This document shows positions 17,112 through 27,394 of a stretch of 64,000 nucleotides of DNA, one piece after another. Numbering within the stretch: the first letter of the stretch is position 1; the number at the start of each line of letters is the position of its first letter. The notes under the pieces are model-generated. The model ran no database searches and was not told where the DNA came from. It saw only the letters and a list, made by a program, of their open reading frames with translations. Made by a program: the position numbers and the translations under genes. The stretch is from Thiomargarita sp. (lineage in GTDB: Bacteria > Pseudomonadota > Gammaproteobacteria > Beggiatoales > Beggiatoaceae). Where the stretch lies: the NCBI GenBank assembly GCA_020721005.1, contig DYNP01000009.1:75105-139104 (forward strand). Direction: 5' to 3'.

Positions 17112-17381
17112 TTATAATTCATCCTGTCTTTCCACTATGACTGCCAGGCGCAGCCCGAGGCCACGCAACAGGCTGCTGACTTCCTGCCCCAATTGATGAA
17201 ATGGAACCTGGTAAGTTTGCGAATTTAAGGATTGTTCTAATTTTCCTTCTGATCTGCTGATATTTCGCAAGGCGGTCAAAAACAGATGTAAATCATTTTC
17301 TTCCAATGCCGCATTCAAATAAGCGGCACGTTCTTGTGGGGTTGTAAGGTAATCACTGCTTTGATAACTACGACTTGGCAT
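17112..17381 (-). CDS. Orphan addiction-module antidote (HI1420/HigA-like) protein
   Basis: A protein of about 89 residues from the internal ATG at 17381 (the frame extends to an ATG at 17423). The N-terminus SDYLTTPQERAAYLNAALEE and ALRNISRSEG match the 'probable addiction module antidote' family, which begins with a YL..pe..aaYL.aaLeegD pattern. The normal helix-turn-helix middle (GMTQLA..TGLSRESLY) is poorly kept: it reads KLEQSLNSQTYQVPFHQLGQ. The tail LLRGLGLRLAVIV is typical. No RelE/HigB-type toxin gene is adjacent, so this is an orphan, possibly degenerate antitoxin. Confidence 0.6.
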   Translation of the reverse strand: MPSRSYQSSDYLTTPQERAAYLNAALEENDLHLFLTALRNISRSEGKLEQSLNSQTYQVPFHQLGQEVSSLLRGLGLRLAVIVERQDEL

Positions 17382-17451
17382 AATAAATTTGTTCTTTCTG
17401 ACACGAATTTCGATATTCATCATTCATATAGTTAATCATACAATAGTAATG

Positions 17452-17500: not shown

Positions 17501-17734
17501 CTAATATTTCTGTAACAATTCAAAGAACTTTTCTTTGTCAATGCCAATATCTTGAATCATTCCCATGAGAGTACCTTGCTTTAGATCTTGTCCTGAATGA
17601 ATGGGAACTATTACTCTTTTTCCATCAATATTCTTGTAAATAGCATGACTACCTTTTTGCCGATCGAAATAAAATCCTAATTTTTCAATGACTTTAATAA
17701 ATTCTTTTGCTTTAACTTTAGGAAAGTTGCTCAT
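17501..17734 (-). CDS. hicA: HicA-family mRNA interferase toxin
   Basis: A 77-residue HicA toxin. Its dsRNA-binding-like fold carries the catalytic histidine in QKGSHAIYKN near residues 26-35, followed by RVIVPIHSGQDLKQGTL near 40-56, the most conserved stretch of the family. HicA cleaves mRNA and tmRNA and is neutralised by HicB. It lies 10 bases after hicB in the same operon, with the antitoxin first, the reverse of the E. coli order but common. A strong terminator follows. Confidence 0.92.
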   Translation of the reverse strand: MSNFPKVKAKEFIKVIEKLGFYFDRQKGSHAIYKNIDGKRVIVPIHSGQDLKQGTLMGMIQDIGIDKEKFFELLQKY

Positions 17735-17744
17735 CTTAAAATAG

Positions 17745-17975
17745 TTAATGAAATGATTTGAAAACTGGATCCTCTTTAGGTATAGGTTGACTATCCGCTT
17801 TTAAACTTTCAAGATATAATTCAATAGCTTCTGTAATATTATCAATTGTTTCTTCAAAAGTGTCTCCTTGAGAATGACAGCCTTTGAGAATAGGACAAAA
17901 AGCATGATAGCCTCCATCTTCTTCTTTTTCAAGAAGGACGGTGTAATTGTAAATTTGCTTGCTGTTATTGTTCAT
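17745..17975 (-). CDS. hicB: HicB-family antitoxin
   Basis: A 76-residue HicB-like antitoxin: YTVLLEKEEDGGYHAFCPILKGCHSQGDTFEETIDNI is the typical partial RNase H fold that binds and blocks HicA. It lacks the C-terminal DNA-binding domain found in longer HicB proteins, so autoregulation by this protein alone is uncertain. It is first in the hicBA operon. A 35-base internal piece is duplicated upstream at 18043-18077. Confidence 0.9.
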   Translation of the reverse strand: MNNNSKQIYNYTVLLEKEEDGGYHAFCPILKGCHSQGDTFEETIDNITEAIELYLESLKADSQPIPKEDPVFKSFH

Positions 17976-18299: not shown

Positions 18300-19949
<1,650 letters not shown>

Positions 19950-19960
19950 CTAAATTAAAG

Positions 19961-20248
19961 TTACTCAATAATACCCATGATATCTTCTTCACGCATGACC
20001 AATAATTCTTGGCCATCGACCTTGACCTCAGTCCCGGAATATTTGCCAAAAAACACATGATCATTCACTTTGACATCCAATGGACGAATCTCACCACTCT
20101 CTAACACCTTACCCTTGCCCACCGCAATCACTTTTCCACGGATAGGTTTTTCGGTAGCGGAATCAGGGATCAAGATACCACCGGCTGACTTTCTCTCTTC
20201 TTCTAACCGTTGAACGATGACTCTATCATATAAGGGACGAATCTGCAT
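19961..20248 (-). CDS. groS: Co-chaperonin GroES (10 kDa)
   Basis: A 95-residue GroES, the heptameric lid of GroEL. The start [15 protein letters not shown], the mobile loop [16 protein letters not shown] near residues 20-35 and the end [12 protein letters not shown] are typical. It is the first gene of the operon, behind a 5' leader of about 155 bases that begins at a sigma-32 promoter overlapping a CIRCE operator. Confidence 0.98.
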
Positions 20249-20387
20249 ATTAGAGGGTTCCTCTCAGTTTGGTGAAGTGAAATAAATAAGGCAGTCATAC
20301 CTGTGAAAACTCAAGTAAACCAAGATATCACTCGCAAAGAGTAAATATCTCCTGCCCCCCAGATCAATTTACGCTGGTGAAGCCAAA

Positions 20388-20414
20388 TTAGCACTCACCT
20401 TTGATGACTGCTAA
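20388..20414 (-). promoter_or_regulatory. CIRCE operator (HrcA site) of groESL
   Basis: TTAGCACTC at 20388-20396, nine bases, then GACTGCTAA at 20406-20414. It matches the CIRCE consensus TTAGCACTC-N9-GAGTGCTAA at 17 of 18 positions. It sits where transcription from the adjacent sigma-32 promoter should start, as expected for HrcA repression. An hrcA gene is predicted elsewhere in the genome. Confidence 0.92.
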
Positions 20415-20445
20415 TAATGGGGGTAGTCATTGCAGTTTCAAGGGG
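20415..20445 (-). promoter_or_regulatory. Sigma-32 (RpoH) heat-shock promoter of groESL
   Basis: Read on the minus strand: CCCCTTGAAA (20436-20445), 13 bases, then CCCCATTA (20415-20422). This fits the RpoH consensus CTTGAAA-N13-15-CCCCATNT. The -10 element abuts the CIRCE operator, so both heat-shock controls act on one promoter. Confidence 0.85.
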
Positions 20446-20782
20446 TCAATTGATAAATTTTGAACTCACTCCATTTCACTCACCGTCCTCCAGTTATCAT
20501 ACTGAATAGAAGCAAACAGCTGTCCAAAAACTGTCACTTAATTTACATACCCATAAAGAGGAATAAAAACATCCTCTCTTCGGTTAAACTCAATAAAAAT
20601 AACCCCTAAACTCCAATTTTCCCCCACTATTCCGCAATAAAAAAATTCCTAGCTCATTAATCAACAATTAAAACCAATTCCTATCTATTTGATTTCACAT
20701 AAATTTAATAGGAATAATTTTTGCATAAAACTTATATGCAACCCGCCCATTATTATTAAAAATATTTTTTAAGGAGTATAAC
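20446..20782. other. AT-rich divergent intergenic region
   Basis: This 337-base stretch holds no gene. It has an imperfect hairpin around 20557-20580 (AGAGGA with TCCTCT). A perfect inverted repeat, TTGCAT (20721-20726) and ATGCAA (20736-20741), lies about 40 bases before the cold-shock-domain gene and could be an operator. AT-rich sequence just before that gene suggests its promoter. Confidence 0.4.
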
Positions 20783-21079
20783 ATGAGAAACACAATCCTC
20801 ACTTGCCTACTGTTTAGCCTTTTAACGGTAGGATTTACCCCATTGGCTTATGCCAATGATCTTCAAAAAGGCGTAGTTAAATGGTTTGATCGAAAGGGAG
20901 GATTTGGATTTATCGTTCCTAACAACGGTGGCAAAGACTTATTTTTCCATTTCAGCGCCATAGTTGGGGAAAAAGGAGAAGAAGTTAAATTTTTACCGGC
21001 AGGTCAACAAGTGATCTATCAACTCAAAACTATTGACGGTAAAAAAAGAGTCAGTTGGGTAAAAGCCATCTCCTCCTAA
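20783..21079 (+). CDS. Exported cold-shock-domain protein
   Basis: A 98-residue protein joining a clear Sec signal peptide (MRNTILTCLLFSLLTVGF then TPLAYA, cleavage near residue 24) to one cold-shock domain. The nucleic-acid-binding motifs are intact: KGVVKWFDRKGGFGFI (RNP1, near 29-44) and DLFFHFSAI (RNP2, near 52-60), with the usual aromatic residues and the terminal strand VSWVKAIS. Normal Csp proteins bind RNA or ssDNA in the cytoplasm; here the leader predicts export to the periplasm or beyond. AAGGAG lies 7 bases before the ATG, so the start including the leader is well supported. It stands alone. Confidence 0.88.
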   Translation: MRNTILTCLLFSLLTVGFTPLAYANDLQKGVVKWFDRKGGFGFIVPNNGGKDLFFHFSAIVGEKGEEVKFLPAGQQVIYQLKTIDGKKRVSWVKAISS

Positions 21080-21283
21080 AAAAATCCATCCTAACCAATA
21101 ATACCCCCTCATTATGCCTACATAAACAATTCCGGTAGGATAGGCATAATTCCGAAAATAACAAGGGCCAGACCCGCCCCACCTAACTCAAAACCCTCAA
21201 CAATCATTGAGTTATGCCTGACCAGCCCGGCCCCTTAAGACCCCATACAACACTGTTTAAACTGTAACTTTATAATTTATCCT

Positions 21284-21793
21284 CTATCCTAACAATTTCC
21301 CCTGAATCTGCTCAACCCACTCAGCCACCCGTTCCTTAGTTTGATCCTTCTGATTATCCTGATCAATCACCAATCCCAAAAAACGCCCATTTATCACCGC
21401 TTTGGATTTCTCAAATTCATAACCCTCAATCGGCCAATCCCCCACAAAACTAACCCCTAACTTCTTAAATTTCTGATAAATAAACAACATGGCATCCACA
21501 AACTCATCTGCATAACCCACCTGATCGCCCAGACCAAAAATAGCCACCGTCTTCCCAGAAAAATCCATTCCATCCAACTTGGGCAACAAAGCTGCCCAAC
21601 TATTCTCCAATTCTCCATCTCCTAAAGTAGGTGTCCCTAAAATCAGGGAATCATAACGGGCAAGATCCTCGGGACTGCACTTGGCCACATTATAAACCTC
21701 CACCTCTTCCTCTCCCAACTGTTTGGCCAACAACTTTGCCACCTTTCGGGTATTCCCAGTCTCTGTGCCATAAAACAAACCTATCTTAGCCAT
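21284..21793 (-). CDS. Flavodoxin (nif-associated)
   Basis: A 169-residue long-chain flavodoxin. The FMN phosphate loop FYGTETGNTRKVA lies near residues 8-20, the FMN-stacking loops TPTLGDGELENSW near 54-66 and GLGDQVGYADEF near 97-108. Length and position at the end of the nif gene set suggest a NifF role, giving electrons to the nitrogenase Fe protein, but general flavodoxins look alike. It follows the DUF6129-like gene after 36 bases. Confidence 0.9.
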   Translation of the reverse strand: MAKIGLFYGTETGNTRKVAKLLAKQLGEEEVEVYNVAKCSPEDLARYDSLILGTPTLGDGELENSWAALLPKLDGMDFSGKTVAIFGLGDQVGYADEFVDAMLFIYQKFKKLGVSFVGDWPIEGYEFEKSKAVINGRFLGLVIDQDNQKDQTKERVAEWVEQIQGKLLG

Positions 21794-21829
21794 ATTTCAT
21801 ATTCTCCTATCAACACCTAACTTTGTTAC

Positions 21830-22105
21830 CTAACTTCTCTCAACCGTCTTCTCAGCCAACACCACACCTGTGGCCACCTCATAACTCTGAGTCAACTGCA
21901 AACAATGACCCTGTCCATCCACCAAATAGACATTAAAATCAGCACGTTCCAACACCGGCACCGTATCCACAATCTCATCCTCCAAACAATAAGTAAAATG
22001 ACACTGTGGATAATTTTGCCGCAACTGCTTCAACCAATCTGCACTGCCAATTCCTTGTCGCTCCAACCAATTGGCTACCTCCTCAATCCACTCGGGACTG
22101 ATCAT
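21830..22105 (-). CDS. DUF6129-like nif-cluster protein
   Basis: A 91-residue protein without catalytic motif. The arrangement of a short N-terminal helical part (ISPEWIEEVANWLERQGIG) followed by HFTYCLEDEIVDTVPV, FNVYLVDGQGHCLQLT and ATGVVLAE matches, from recall, a small family (DUF6129) found inside proteobacterial nif clusters. Its start overlaps the end of nafY by 4 bases, so it is co-translated with it. Function unknown, probably linked to nitrogenase cofactor handling. Confidence 0.65.
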   Translation of the reverse strand: MISPEWIEEVANWLERQGIGSADWLKQLRQNYPQCHFTYCLEDEIVDTVPVLERADFNVYLVDGQGHCLQLTQSYEVATGVVLAEKTVERS

Positions 22106-22794
22106 TCCTCATCCTCCTCATTATGGCAAATTCTCACCAAAGATCGACCCATGAGCTTAGCCAACCACGGAGGAGGCGAACTGGCCAACGTATTTTGCAA
22201 CTCAGCCAAAATCACACGCGCCTCCCCAGCTGCAGCCACTTTAACCGGATGAATGCCCTGTTTAACCACCTTAGCCGCCGGGGGACCTCCGATTGAAACC
22301 ACATACAATAAATGACAATCTCCAATCAATTGAGCCCGAGCCTCATTCCGATCATCCATCAACACGGCAGTCTCAACTTCCAAAGTTGAACGAATCTCAA
22401 CCAAACGCATCTCTGTTGCAGTTACTTGATAAATCAAAAACCGCACACAACTGCCAAAATGTCCATCCAACAATTCCCCTTGGTTTGAGGCACAAGCCAC
22501 CCGCACAAATTGTCCTTGAGACAACGGAGGTTGCACAGCCGGCAAGTTCTCATTCACCCCCTCTCCCTCTTTCAACTGCCGCAAAGCAACCTGTAAAAGA
22601 CCTGGCTCAACCTGGGTCAACTCTTCCATAGCCAACTTCAAATCTTTGACCTTCAACCCCTGCAACTTTTCTTCAGTCAATGGCAGTCCCAATTGCTCAA
22701 TCAAGGCCTGCAATAACTGAGCAGGAGCGACTTCTGGCAATGATCGAGCGGCCAAGCCAATTCTCAATGCAATATCTCGAGACAATTCACTCAT
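22102..22794 (-). CDS. nafY: NafY/NifY-type FeMo-cofactor carrier protein
   Basis: A 230-residue two-domain protein. The N-terminal ~95 residues are helical (IALRIGLAARSLPEV, LLQALIEQLGLPLTE), like the apodinitrogenase-binding domain of NafY. The C-terminal ~110 residues are a NifX/NifB-C-like cofactor-binding domain with LDGHFGSCVRFLIYQV near 122-137 (His likely involved in cofactor binding) and VVSIGGPPAAKVVKQGIHPV near 181-200. NafY keeps apo-NifDK open and delivers FeMo-co. It overlaps nifT by 4 bases upstream and the DUF6129-like gene by 4 downstream. Confidence 0.85.
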   Translation of the reverse strand: MSELSRDIALRIGLAARSLPEVAPAQLLQALIEQLGLPLTEEKLQGLKVKDLKLAMEELTQVEPGLLQVALRQLKEGEGVNENLPAVQPPLSQGQFVRVACASNQGELLDGHFGSCVRFLIYQVTATEMRLVEIRSTLEVETAVLMDDRNEARAQLIGDCHLLYVVSIGGPPAAKVVKQGIHPVKVAAAGEARVILAELQNTLASSPPPWLAKLMGRSLVRICHNEEDEE

Positions 22795-23012
22795 AAACGC
22801 TTGACCCTAAGCGTAAGTGGCAACTGTGGAGGCGCTTCCAATGGCTCAATATAGTACTTAGAACCATCCACCAACTGCACCTCTCCACCCCAAGCACTGG
22901 GACCATCATATTCAATCGAAACCACCATTTCTTCCAAATCCTTCTTGGGAACATAAAAACTCAACTGTCCTTGCTGGTTTTTTCTAATAATCACATTTGG
23001 CATGATAGACAT
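22791..23012 (-). CDS. nifT: NifT/FixU protein
   Basis: A small protein of about 73 residues, the NifT family size. After the start it reads PNVIIRKNQQGQLSFYVPKKDLEE, then GPSAWGGEVQLVDGSKYYIE and ends PLTLRVKRL. NifT's role is unknown, although it always sits with nifHDK. The frame is open further upstream to 23123, but family length and GAGG placed 10 bases before the ATG at 23012 favour a start at 23003-23012. It overlaps nafY by 4 bases. Confidence 0.88.
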   Translation of the reverse strand: MSIMPNVIIRKNQQGQLSFYVPKKDLEEMVVSIEYDGPSAWGGEVQLVDGSKYYIEPLEAPPQLPLTLRVKRL

Positions 23013-23243
23013 TCTCATATTCCCTCGGCAAGAAAGAAACAATACACCTCTCTCACCAAGGAAGGAAAAAAGACAATTCCATTTCGCTTCCCAATCTGCA
23101 GATTGCCCATGATCGTAAGCCATCTGTGAAAACCAGAAAACTGGAAAGAGATAAGGACCTATTCAACCTAAAAAAACCTCGTTTTAAAGTCAGAAAGTCC
23201 AATTACCTTCTCAACCCTAAAACGAGCGAAGGAGGGAGGAATG

Positions 23244-24815
23244 TTAACGAATCAAATCATAATTAAAATCAGTGACTCCCATAAGTCGAGTCTTCTGATC
23301 CAAATGGGACAAAATCGCATTCACAATGCTGGTCAACATGGTCATTGCACCTTCATAACCCAATGTAGTTTGCCGATGTAAATGATGCCGATCAAAAATG
23401 GGGAATCCAATTCGAATCAATGGCACTTCAAAATCCGGACTTTTCTTTAACGTGTCCAACTGAATAAATTTGCCATAGGAATTCCCGATCATAAAATCAG
23501 GGCGCTCAGTGAAAATTAAGGAACGCAAATGCCACAAATCCTTACCCAGATACACCTTACTCTGCTGTCCATAAGGGGAAGAAGCCAACAACTTTTCCAC
23601 CTCTTTAACCCATCGCTTATTGGCCCCACTTTGGCATAACACATGAATGGGCTCACCGCCCAATTCCATGACAAATTTCACCATCCCCAAGACAAAGTCC
23701 GAATCGCCCCAAATTGCAAACTTTTTACCGTGAATCCATTGGTGAGAATCTGCCATCATATCGATCAAACGACCCCGTTCCTTTTCCAAGCTGGCTGAGA
23801 TGGGTTTTCCTGTAATTTCAGATACTTTCATCAAAAATTCATCCGTCCAATCCAGCCCCATAGGAATGTTGATCTTAGGACAATTGTGCTTCCAAGTGGT
23901 TTCTACATATTTATGAGTTTTAGACAATTGCCAATGCTGCAATAACAAAGTGTCCAACGCATTCGGAGCATCTTTAACTTCAGCCTGACTGGTCCCTCCA
24001 GCATACATATGATATTCTCCAGTCGCTGGAGTGTCTAAAACCTCAGAAGGATCGCATAATAAAGTATGAGGCACTGCCATCTCATCCAACATGCGTTTTA
24101 TCACTCGATAATTGCCCAAATAGGTCTCAAACCCTGGAACAATATTAAGTTTGCCATTGCTGCCCACTTTTTTACCTTCCATTTCATTGAGCGTGAAATG
24201 GCGAATAATGCCCTCAAACATATTATCCCACCCATTGACATGGCTGCCCACAAAACTGGGAGTGTGAGCGAATGGCAGATGAAAATCTTCGGGAATGCGA
24301 CCATCTTTTTTGGCGTTTTGAATAAATGCATTCAAGTCATCTCCAATGACTTCAGCCATGCAGGTAGTTGAGACCGCCATCATACCCGGCTTGTTCAATG
24401 TATAAGCATTCTCCAAACCCACAAACATATTCTTTTGCCCACCGAATACCGCAGCATCTTCAGTCATCGAATCCGAAACACATTGGACTGGCTCTCGAAA
24501 ATGTCGATTCAAGTAAGTGCGAAAATAAGCAACACATCCTTGAGACCCATGCACATAGGGCAGGGTATTCTCAAATCCCAAGGCACATAACACTGCCCCT
24601 AAAGGTTGACACGCTTTAGCTGGATTGATAGTCAACGCTTGTCGGGAGAAATTCAACTCCTTGTATTCCTCCGTAGTGGTCCAATGAAAAATTTCCTCGA
24701 TTTTCTCCTGAGGATAAGCTTCCTCGAAAACCTTCTTGTTTCTCAAACTTTCTTGATAGTTCTCTTCTAAAAACAGGGGATAACTGGGTTTGATGTTTTC
24801 AACAGTTTGGCTCAT
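23244..24815 (-). CDS. nifK: Nitrogenase MoFe protein beta chain
   Basis: A 523-residue NifK from the ATG at 24815, chosen because AAGGAG lies 8 bases upstream and the length equals the usual one; an in-frame ATG at 24842 adds nine residues. P-cluster region NPAKACQPLGAVLCALGF near 64-81 and the conserved YVHGSQGCVAYFRTYLNRHF near 88-107 hold cysteine ligands and the serine/tyrosine neighbours. It pairs with NifD as the N2-reducing MoFe protein. The Mo-type is implied by NifD. It follows nifD by 107 bases. Confidence 0.98.
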   Translation of the reverse strand: MSQTVENIKPSYPLFLEENYQESLRNKKVFEEAYPQEKIEEIFHWTTTEEYKELNFSRQALTINPAKACQPLGAVLCALGFENTLPYVHGSQGCVAYFRTYLNRHFREPVQCVSDSMTEDAAVFGGQKNMFVGLENAYTLNKPGMMAVSTTCMAEVIGDDLNAFIQNAKKDGRIPEDFHLPFAHTPSFVGSHVNGWDNMFEGIIRHFTLNEMEGKKVGSNGKLNIVPGFETYLGNYRVIKRMLDEMAVPHTLLCDPSEVLDTPATGEYHMYAGGTSQAEVKDAPNALDTLLLQHWQLSKTHKYVETTWKHNCPKINIPMGLDWTDEFLMKVSEITGKPISASLEKERGRLIDMMADSHQWIHGKKFAIWGDSDFVLGMVKFVMELGGEPIHVLCQSGANKRWVKEVEKLLASSPYGQQSKVYLGKDLWHLRSLIFTERPDFMIGNSYGKFIQLDTLKKSPDFEVPLIRIGFPIFDRHHLHRQTTLGYEGAMTMLTSIVNAILSHLDQKTRLMGVTDFNYDLIR

Positions 24816-24922
24816 GTTACCGTCTCCTTCCGCGTCACTCATCTGTGCCCTAACGGTTTGGAATGAAAAATGGGTTGGGAAAAGGAGCCTTATAAAACAA
24901 GTCAGGCTCCTAATAAGAATCT

Positions 24923-26398
24923 CTAAGCTGTGGCAGCCAGAGAGGATTTATCTGCTTGTTTCCAAGGCACGGGAATCTTACTCCAACAAGGATTATTAAT
25001 GGTCATATCCATATCCCGAGCGAAGATGGCAAATCCATCATAACCATGATAGGGACCAGAATAGTCCCAAGAATGCATTTGCCGGAAAGGCACGCCCATT
25101 TTTTGGAACCCATACTTTTCCTTAATGCCGGAACCCACCAAATCAGGTTTTAAAACCTTCACAAACTCGTCCAACTCATGGGCGCTGGCATCGTCATAAA
25201 TCAGGGTAGCATCTTTCATATCTTTCATGGTTCGATCATAATCATCGTTATGAGCAAACTCATACCCTGTTCCCACCACTTCCATGCCCAAATCTTCATA
25301 GGCACCGACAGTATGACGAGGACGTAACCCCCCCACATACAACAGGACTTTTTTACCCTGTAATCGCGGACGATATTTGGCAATAACGGCATCCATGGTT
25401 GGCTGATATTTGGCAATCACTCTTTCTGCACCCTCTTGAATTTTCGAGTCAAAATGAGAAGCAATCTTCCGCAGAGACTCAGCAATTTTGGTGGGACCAA
25501 AGAAATTGTATTCCAGCCAAGGAATACCGTACTTTTCTTCCATGTGACGTGAAATATAGTTCATGGAACGATAACAATGTAACAAATTCATTTTGACTTT
25601 GGGAGTCAATTCCATCTCGGACAGAGAACCATCTCCGGACCATTGTGCAACTACCCGCAGCCCCATCTCTTCTAACAGTACTCGAGAAGACCAAGCATCG
25701 CCCCCAATATTATAATCTCCCAAAATGGAGACATCGTAAGGAGTGGTCTCAAAACTATTGTCTTCATCCCGTTTACTCAATAGCCAGTCTCGAATCGAAT
25801 CGTTGGCAATATGATGACCCAATGATTGGGAAACTCCACGGAAGCCCTCACAACGGACTGGTACAATCGGCTTATTGATTTGCTTGGATTTTTTACGAGC
25901 CACCGCTTCAATATCATCGCCAATCAGTCCAATGGGGCATTCAGACAAGACACTGATTCCCTTATGCAAAGGGAATAACATTTCAACTTCATCAATCATT
26001 TTTTCCAACTTCTTATCTCCCCCAAACACAATATCTTTCTCTTGATAATCGGAAGTGAAGTTGATGGTGACAAAATTATTAACGCCCGTAAAACCAGAAT
26101 AATAGTTGCGTCGACCCGCCCGAGTGTAGGCGCCACATCCTACTGGCCCATGGGAGATATGGACCATATCTTTGATCGGTCCCCATACCACCCCTTTAGC
26201 ACCGGCATAGGCACACCCTCGCATAGTGGTCACCCCAGGTTGGGACTTTTTATTGGAAATAATACACTTTTTGGACTTGTCAACGTTTTTATCATTGACC
26301 ATCAGATGCTTAGCCCGATCCTTCTTAGTCTGTTCCGGATAAGCTTTAAGCACCTCTTGAATTAAGGCCTCATTTTCAGTCCGCGTGCGTTCAGTCAT
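24923..26398 (-). CDS. nifD: Nitrogenase MoFe protein alpha chain
   Basis: A 491-residue NifD. P-cluster cysteines are at residues 62 (MRGCAYAG) and 88 (GPVGCGAYT), as in Azotobacter numbering; another lies in [12 protein letters not shown] near 154. FeMo-co ligands are the Cys of [11 protein letters not shown] near 275 and the His of [14 protein letters not shown] near 442. All ligands of Mo-nitrogenase are present, and no VnfD/AnfD signature is seen. It lies 60 bases after nifH in the same operon. Confidence 0.98.
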
Positions 26399-26458
26399 AG
26401 TAAAAAACTCCTCTTGAAAAAGGACATTGAGACAGACATCTCGTTTTTGATTGGGATA

Positions 26459-27394
<936 letters not shown>

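Follow-up and report, generated by a model that had tools for sequence, protein, structure and literature searches.

A cold-shock domain behind a predicted Sec signal peptide in Thiomargarita and related Beggiatoaceae

In textbooks, Csp proteins are described as RNA chaperones of the cytoplasm, and their location is cytoplasmic by default. The window, a 64,000-nt stretch of a Thiomargarita sp. genome, contains a gene in which a Sec-type leader is fused to a cold-shock domain (CSD). This raises the question whether the product leaves the cytoplasm, and what it may bind there. In our preferred reading, to which a probability of about 0.6 is assigned, the gene encodes an exported cold-shock protein that leaves by the Sec route, is cut by signal peptidase I (SPI) after residue 24 and binds single strands of nucleic acid (or some other polyanion) outside the cytoplasm. 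A normally cytoplasmic, nucleic-acid-binding CSD here carries an apparent export signal, and proteins of the same kind with a changed binding loop are present in some related sulfur bacteria. If true, a conserved lineage of Sec-exported CSDs would provide a concrete example of a bacterial protein that handles nucleic acids outside the cytoplasm, in periplasm or matrix, a poorly known subject. If exported, such leader-CSDs would also constitute a natural experiment on a CSD binding loop freed from cytoplasmic RNA chaperoning.

Window gene, leader and upstream region

The window gene is the open reading frame at 20783–21079 (+), which codes for 98 aa plus stop. Its product is MRNTILTCLLFSLLTVGFTPLAYA|NDLQKGVVKWFDRKGGFGFIVPNNGGKDLFFHFSAIVGEKGEEVKFLPAGQQVIYQLKTIDGKKRVSWVKAISS, where the bar marks the predicted cut. 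A leader followed by a CSD had been placed here by the first-pass annotation, and reading frame and Pfam search bear this out. Of the three PF00313 matches in the host genome (G000; 4.05 Mb, 133 contigs), that of the window gene alone has this leader. The third CSD of the genome (L003, G000 C84:73989–74156) is part of a 226-aa frame; its tree branch is long and apart from the others, and it is possibly of the CSD-DUF membrane type.

The predicted Sec signal peptide comprises residues 1–24 (20783–20854, +) and ends in PLAYA|ND. It has a basic n-region with one Arg, a 12-residue core with a mean Kyte-Doolittle (KD) value of 2.57 and the cleavage motif A-Y-A|N (cut AYA|ND); lipobox and twin-Arg motif are absent. 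All three regions (n, h and c) expected in a Sec/SPI signal peptide were recognized by a home-made rule, in agreement with the typical Sec leader annotated before. The rule asks for a start codon with Shine-Dalgarno sequence, a basic n-region, a core KD of 2.2 or more and small residues at -3/-1. For the long start, a Shine-Dalgarno sequence had likewise been noted, and AAGGAG is indeed present at 20771–20776 (+), 6 nt before the ATG. The sole other start codon before the CSD is an in-frame TTG (codon 21; 20843–20845, +) with AGGA upstream, a possible leaderless start that could yield a cytoplasmic form. Taken as a sequence prediction, export of the window protein is supported.

The gene (+) is located between a divergent groES-groEL pair (groES, PF00166, 19961–20248, −; groEL, 18300–19937, −) and a converging flavodoxin gene, which is the most downstream gene of a nif cluster on the minus strand. 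By Pfam, this cluster at 21284–27391 (−) comprises flavodoxin, DUF6129, FeMo-cofactor protein, NifT and nitrogenase component 1; nifD- and nifH-like frames were recognized by eye beyond it. A pair of HicA toxin and HicB-like antitoxin is encoded at 17501–17975 (−) and adjoined by an HI1420-type antidote-like frame (17112–17423).

Upstream of the gene, the palindrome TTGCAT-N9-ATGCAA was found at 20721–20741, as annotated earlier. The control role then proposed for it was dropped: the palindrome occurs at one site in its own genome (control pattern 0), and none is present upstream of the other 11 leader-CSD genes. A sigma-70-like match, TTGATT-18-AATAAT at 20689–20718 (+), is no evidence by itself, because the region has three promoter-like sites where 2.8 are expected. 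The TAACTGA repeats of marine Beggiatoaceae (PMC4679880) were also discarded as an explanation, with 5 in the window versus 6.83 expected. An Rfam search of positions 20000–21400 gave no RNA element at E 1 or less. Repeats amounted to one 12-nt inverted pair, inside the ORF.

Distribution and descent of leader-CSDs

For the host family Beggiatoaceae, 42 genomes of 25 genera were sampled; 25 is also the number of Beggiatoaceae genera given for GTDB (PMC11172852). Leader-CSDs were identified by searches with the window protein, by inspection of reading frames and with a profile (A1) built from ten of them. At least 12 leader-CSD genes are present in 9 of the 42 genomes and in 7 genera, with one copy each in G000, G018, G010, G028, G002 and G026 and two each in G007, G014 and G024. 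The family search for CSDs with leaders that the first-pass annotation had recommended was thus productive, and its concern that homologues might consistently lack the N-terminal segment did not materialize. Twelve is a lower count, because the A1 matches of the family were examined in part; to this extent, no leader-CSD was seen in the other 33 genomes. Ordinary csp genes form clusters of about 2 kb each in two genomes of one genus, with eight matches in G010 (C2:4104653–4106642) and seven in G028 (C1:3814050–3815793); the matches in these clusters (L288, L298, L024) are closely related.

The home-made leader rule was passed by 11 of the 12 leader-CSDs, compared with 1 of the 252 remaining CSD frames, and shuffled leaders passed in 174 of 5500 cases; the single leader-CSD failing it is the G026 copy (L056). 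Because the 12 were chosen partly for their hydrophobic leaders and the rule is home-made, it serves as a guard against chance and not as an independent test. Across genera, the leaders are similar in make-up and divergent in sequence. An ATG or GTG lies within nine residues of the CSD in 251 of 264 distinct CSD frames (354 loci), including the leader-CSDs L007, L056 and L285, each with an inner ATG. Nine of the 13 frames without such a codon are leader-CSDs. Expressed by group, the codon is present in 248/252 other frames and absent from 9/12 leader frames. Between leader ATG and CSD, the G007 copy L049 contains no further start codon (ATG, GTG or TTG).

Within the family, the ten A1 seeds scored 109–127 bits and the next match 84, a gap that is partly circular because ten of the 12 are seeds; the non-seeds L285 and L057 scored 78.5 and 58.6. 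Nothing comparable was listed outside the family, neither in a draw of 369 genomes of the class (4 of the family; best listed score outside it 83.0 bits) nor in a draw of 398 genomes of the phylum (one of them the own genome, overlapping the class draw; best listed 81.0 bits). Twenty further class matches were also examined, the frames read being a minority of the class and phylum matches. At the examined loci from elsewhere than the family, a start codon (ATG or GTG) was found no more than nine residues from the CSD in all CSD frames but one, the viral L186, which is truncated by its contig end; frames with so near a start codon would not be leader-CSDs. Leader-CSDs of another kind could escape the class and phylum searches, because L285 and L057 score low on the ten-seed profile. 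Of the 586 loci confirmed in the contig search for relatives, the best 80 were covered, and genes closely related to the window gene may fall outside these. On viral contigs, of which the best 80 of 424 were covered, no leader-CSD was present among the frames found; one of these frames, L186, ends with its contig. Phages and plasmids were covered at the level of CSD matches, in 31 and 690 records. Among the genomes searched, the leader-CSDs appear as a paralogous group so far found only in Beggiatoaceae.

A CSD-only tree of 99 rows was calculated, with 30 of 193 other frames taken by random draw and without two family frames of <45 residues. The 12 leader-CSDs formed one group with support 80/47, present in 78% of bootstrap trees, and several of them were on long branches. 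A second tree was built with a masked RNP1 loop and without six long rows, among them two leader-CSDs; here, the remaining 10 leader-CSDs were again one group (SH-aLRT 93, quick method). One origin is favoured, not proven, because both trees have 62–64 columns, long branches and a long-branch warning.

The closest pair, G002/G026, had a dN/dS of 0.061/0.371 over the gene as a whole, 0.030/0.411 within the CSD and 0.135/0.297 within the leader, where 13 nt changes fall on 29 codons. By this one pair, with its few leader changes, the gene looks constrained and the leader faster-evolving. Three further pairs were saturated or nearly so: G018/G014 gave 0.455/1.881 for the gene, and in the other two, whole-gene dS was not computable. 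Leader, CSD and loop change can be read from the sequences, together with constraint in the one pair of sufficient closeness for measurement.

Between genera, synteny revealed groEL alone as a common neighbour, shared by the window and G007, and singled out none of the roles named in the first-pass annotation (matrix eDNA/eRNA, uptake or envelope attachment). The G007 copy in L050 is likely an orthologue of the window gene, because it shares this neighbour and is placed near the window protein on the 99-row tree. G002 and G026, which belong to one genus, have several neighbours in common. Single cases are T2SS-F next to the second copy of G024 and, next to the G010 copy, an AAA ATPase that we take to be HslU-like.

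Cold-shock domain, predicted fold and binding loop

The CSD covers residues 29–88 (20867–21046, +) and is the sole Pfam family found in the protein (PF00313, E 1.4e-16, 60.6 bits at a gathering cut-off of 27, profile positions 2–56 of 66). The last ten profile positions are unmatched, and a fifth strand is predicted by the model at residues 87–95. The scores against the eleven NCBIfam models listed were all below the cut-offs (best 60.4 versus 120 bits), so that the protein was assigned to none of the named Csp families of NCBIfam (CspA, CspC, CspD, CspE and others). An AlphaFold model from 30 sequences (the window protein's and 29 ordinary CSDs) has five strands with a block pLDDT of 79–94 over residues 31–98; overall, mean pLDDT was 78.3 and pTM 0.62, with the leader at low confidence. 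The best solved Foldseek matches were CspC (8h1i_B, TM 0.86) and CspA (1mjc, TM 0.84, both by target length). The window CSD is therefore predicted, from the model, to be a five-stranded OB barrel.

CSDs are defined by an RNP1 core [YF]GFI and an RNP2 motif [YF][YF]H (PMC7825780), which the window CSD matches with FGFI and FFH. The RNP1 region RKGGFGFI comprises residues 37–44 (20891–20914, +). The RNP2 region LFFHFSAI follows at residues 53–60 (20939–20962, +); F54 and H56 are identical in 12/12 leader-CSDs. RNP1 (KGGFGFI) had been described as intact, which holds for its FGFI core, but the Lys or Arg that precedes the RNP1 Gly in ordinary CSDs is replaced by Gly39. At this position (K13 in CspB numbering), 236 of the 252 ordinary frames have Lys and the other 16 have Arg. 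Among the 12 leader-CSDs it is Ala in five, Ser in four and Gly, Asn and Arg in one each, so that Lys/Arg is gone in 11/12; in Y-box CSDs this residue is not known to be Lys either. The position preceding it is Lys in five, Gln in four, Gly in two and His in one of the 12. The binding loop is mostly [S/A/T/E]-[K/R] in ordinary CSDs, in contrast to [K/Q/G/H]-[A/S/G/N/R] in the leader group.

Of the aromatic face, W8, F27 and H29 are kept in 12/12 leader-CSDs, and F15 is Phe or Tyr in 12/12. Further contact positions are changed: D25 is Asp in 4/12 leader frames versus 249/252 ordinary frames, N10 is Asp in 8/12 versus 29/252, Gln replaces F17 in two leader-CSDs, and Ile or Ala replaces F30 in two. 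Binding by leader-CSDs may therefore be altered or lost. The binding epitope of TmCsp, as mapped by NMR, includes W7, the loop between beta1 and beta2 that holds K11/K12, and residues of RNP1 (PMC7704496). By analogy with this epitope, the altered loop likely changes affinity or preference rather than the fold.

The calculated pI of the mature form, which depends on the assumed cut, is 9.1–9.8 in 8/12 leader-CSDs (window protein 9.8) and 8.3, 6.0, 5.3 and 4.8 in the others. A pI of 9 or more was obtained for 5/243 ordinary single-domain Csp and, within the family, for 3/53. Cys is absent from 12/12 mature leader-CSDs versus present in 42/243 ordinary single-domain Csp. RNP1 residue, aromatic face, pI, Cys and tree grouping are traits that were not used for choosing the 12. 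The window protein shares with CspA, CspC, CspE and CspB (PF00313) the CSD, the RNP1 core FGFI, RNP2, the aromatic face and the predicted fold, and differs from them by its leader, the replaced RNP1 Lys/Arg and its basic, Cys-free mature form. With a predicted leader and with Gly39 in place of Lys/Arg before the RNP1 Gly, it departs from the ordinary cytoplasmic Csp proteins in two traits.

Proposed export and alternative readings

For export, cleavage, ligand and role of the leader-CSDs, we infer the following course. Exported from the cytoplasm by the Sec machinery, the chain would be cut after AYA24 by signal peptidase I. The CSD would fold and mature in the periplasm, and might remain there or be released further. 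The mature window protein would be a cysteine-free, basic OB-fold CSD of 74 residues (calculated pI 9.8). It would bind short single-stranded nucleic-acid runs, or a different polyanion, by way of its retained aromatic face, with the loop changed. Nucleic-acid binding outside the cytoplasm is proposed because the aromatic face is kept, and the sequences suggest rather than establish it; the basic domain of most leader-CSDs would help polyanion binding. Three of the 12 mature forms, with a pI of 6.0 or less, weigh against this reading. Most simply, a cytoplasmic Csp would have acquired a leader once and given rise to the leader group. A more specific scenario is held tentatively, at somewhat less than even odds: Beggiatoaceae would have moved a CSD outside once, kept it as a dedicated binder of single-stranded nucleic acid and reshaped its RNP1 loop, for instance for capture or protection of DNA at an uptake channel or for RNA/DNA in the filament sheath.

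The alternatives considered are not all mutually exclusive. An exported domain could have been repurposed, with the OB fold binding polysaccharide, peptidoglycan, polyphosphate or protein in the envelope. OB folds bind many ligands, and such a change would agree with the loss of the RNP1 Lys/Arg in 11/12, with the substitutions at D25, F17 and F30 and with the long branches of several leader-CSDs. We nevertheless consider it unlikely in view of the retained W8, F27, H29 and aromatic F15 position in all 12 and of a mature pI of 9 or more in eight. Improbable, although compatible with nucleic-acid binding outside, is an uncut hydrophobic segment that anchors the CSD in the inner membrane with the domain facing the periplasm. 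In the closely related G002 and G026 copies the cleavage motifs are unusual, and that of G026 also has a weak core (KD 1.60), as such an anchor might show, but small residues are found at -3/-1 and at suitable distance in 11/12 copies, with A-Y-A in the window protein.

There is a distinctly small chance that the product is an ordinary cytoplasmic Csp, started at the internal TTG (codon 21) or carrying a leader that does not export. Besides the default location of Csp proteins, the AGGA upstream of this TTG and the ATG close to the CSD in L007, L056 and L285 point in that direction. However, AAGGAG serves the ATG of the long frame, L049 offers no other start codon before its CSD, the nearby ATG or GTG usual in other frames is missing from most leader frames, and the make-up of the leaders is similar across genera despite sequence divergence. 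A secreted, bacteriocin-like antimicrobial is very improbable. It would have a precedent in BtCspB, a Csp-like bacteriocin of Bacillus thuringiensis described as highly similar to CspB (PMC5071883), and mature leader-CSDs are small and mostly basic; against it, groEL (two copies) is the only common gene beside the leader-CSD genes across genera, and the group spans seven genera.

The exported Csp favoured here was also compared with other CSD proteins. BtCspB, compared by description only, resembles it as a Csp acting outside the producing cell (PMC5071883), and is the only bacterial Csp so described in the titles and abstract openings of the open-access papers covered, none of which mentions a signal peptide on a CSD protein of bacteria. 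The secreted animal Y-box proteins YBX1 and DbpA are likewise CSD proteins leaving the cell, but lack a bacterial signal peptide and form a separate case: YBX1 exits by a non-classical pathway (PMC7825780), and DbpA secretion is calcium- and inflammasome-dependent (PMC11506473). For the BOGUAY genome (Beggiatoaceae), CspA, CspE, CSD-Excalibur and CSD-DUF are reported as CSD proteins (PMC4679880). The latter two are other unusual Beggiatoaceae CSDs with extra C-terminal domains of their own, and no leader is described for any of the four in the portion of that paper covered.

If the role were DNA capture, ComEA-type periplasmic DNA-binding proteins, which are of the HhH type, would be functional analogues. 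ComEA-type matches were obtained in 41/42 family genomes (38 over cut-off), with or without leader-CSD, so that there is no sign of ComEA replacement, a reading that was rejected. The leader-CSD of G018 is located tail to tail with comEC (PF03772), an arrangement that fits DNA uptake in one case in twelve. Near this leader-CSD and comEC, a small protein without Pfam match and with a leader-like start is encoded at L051:4922–5305 (+).
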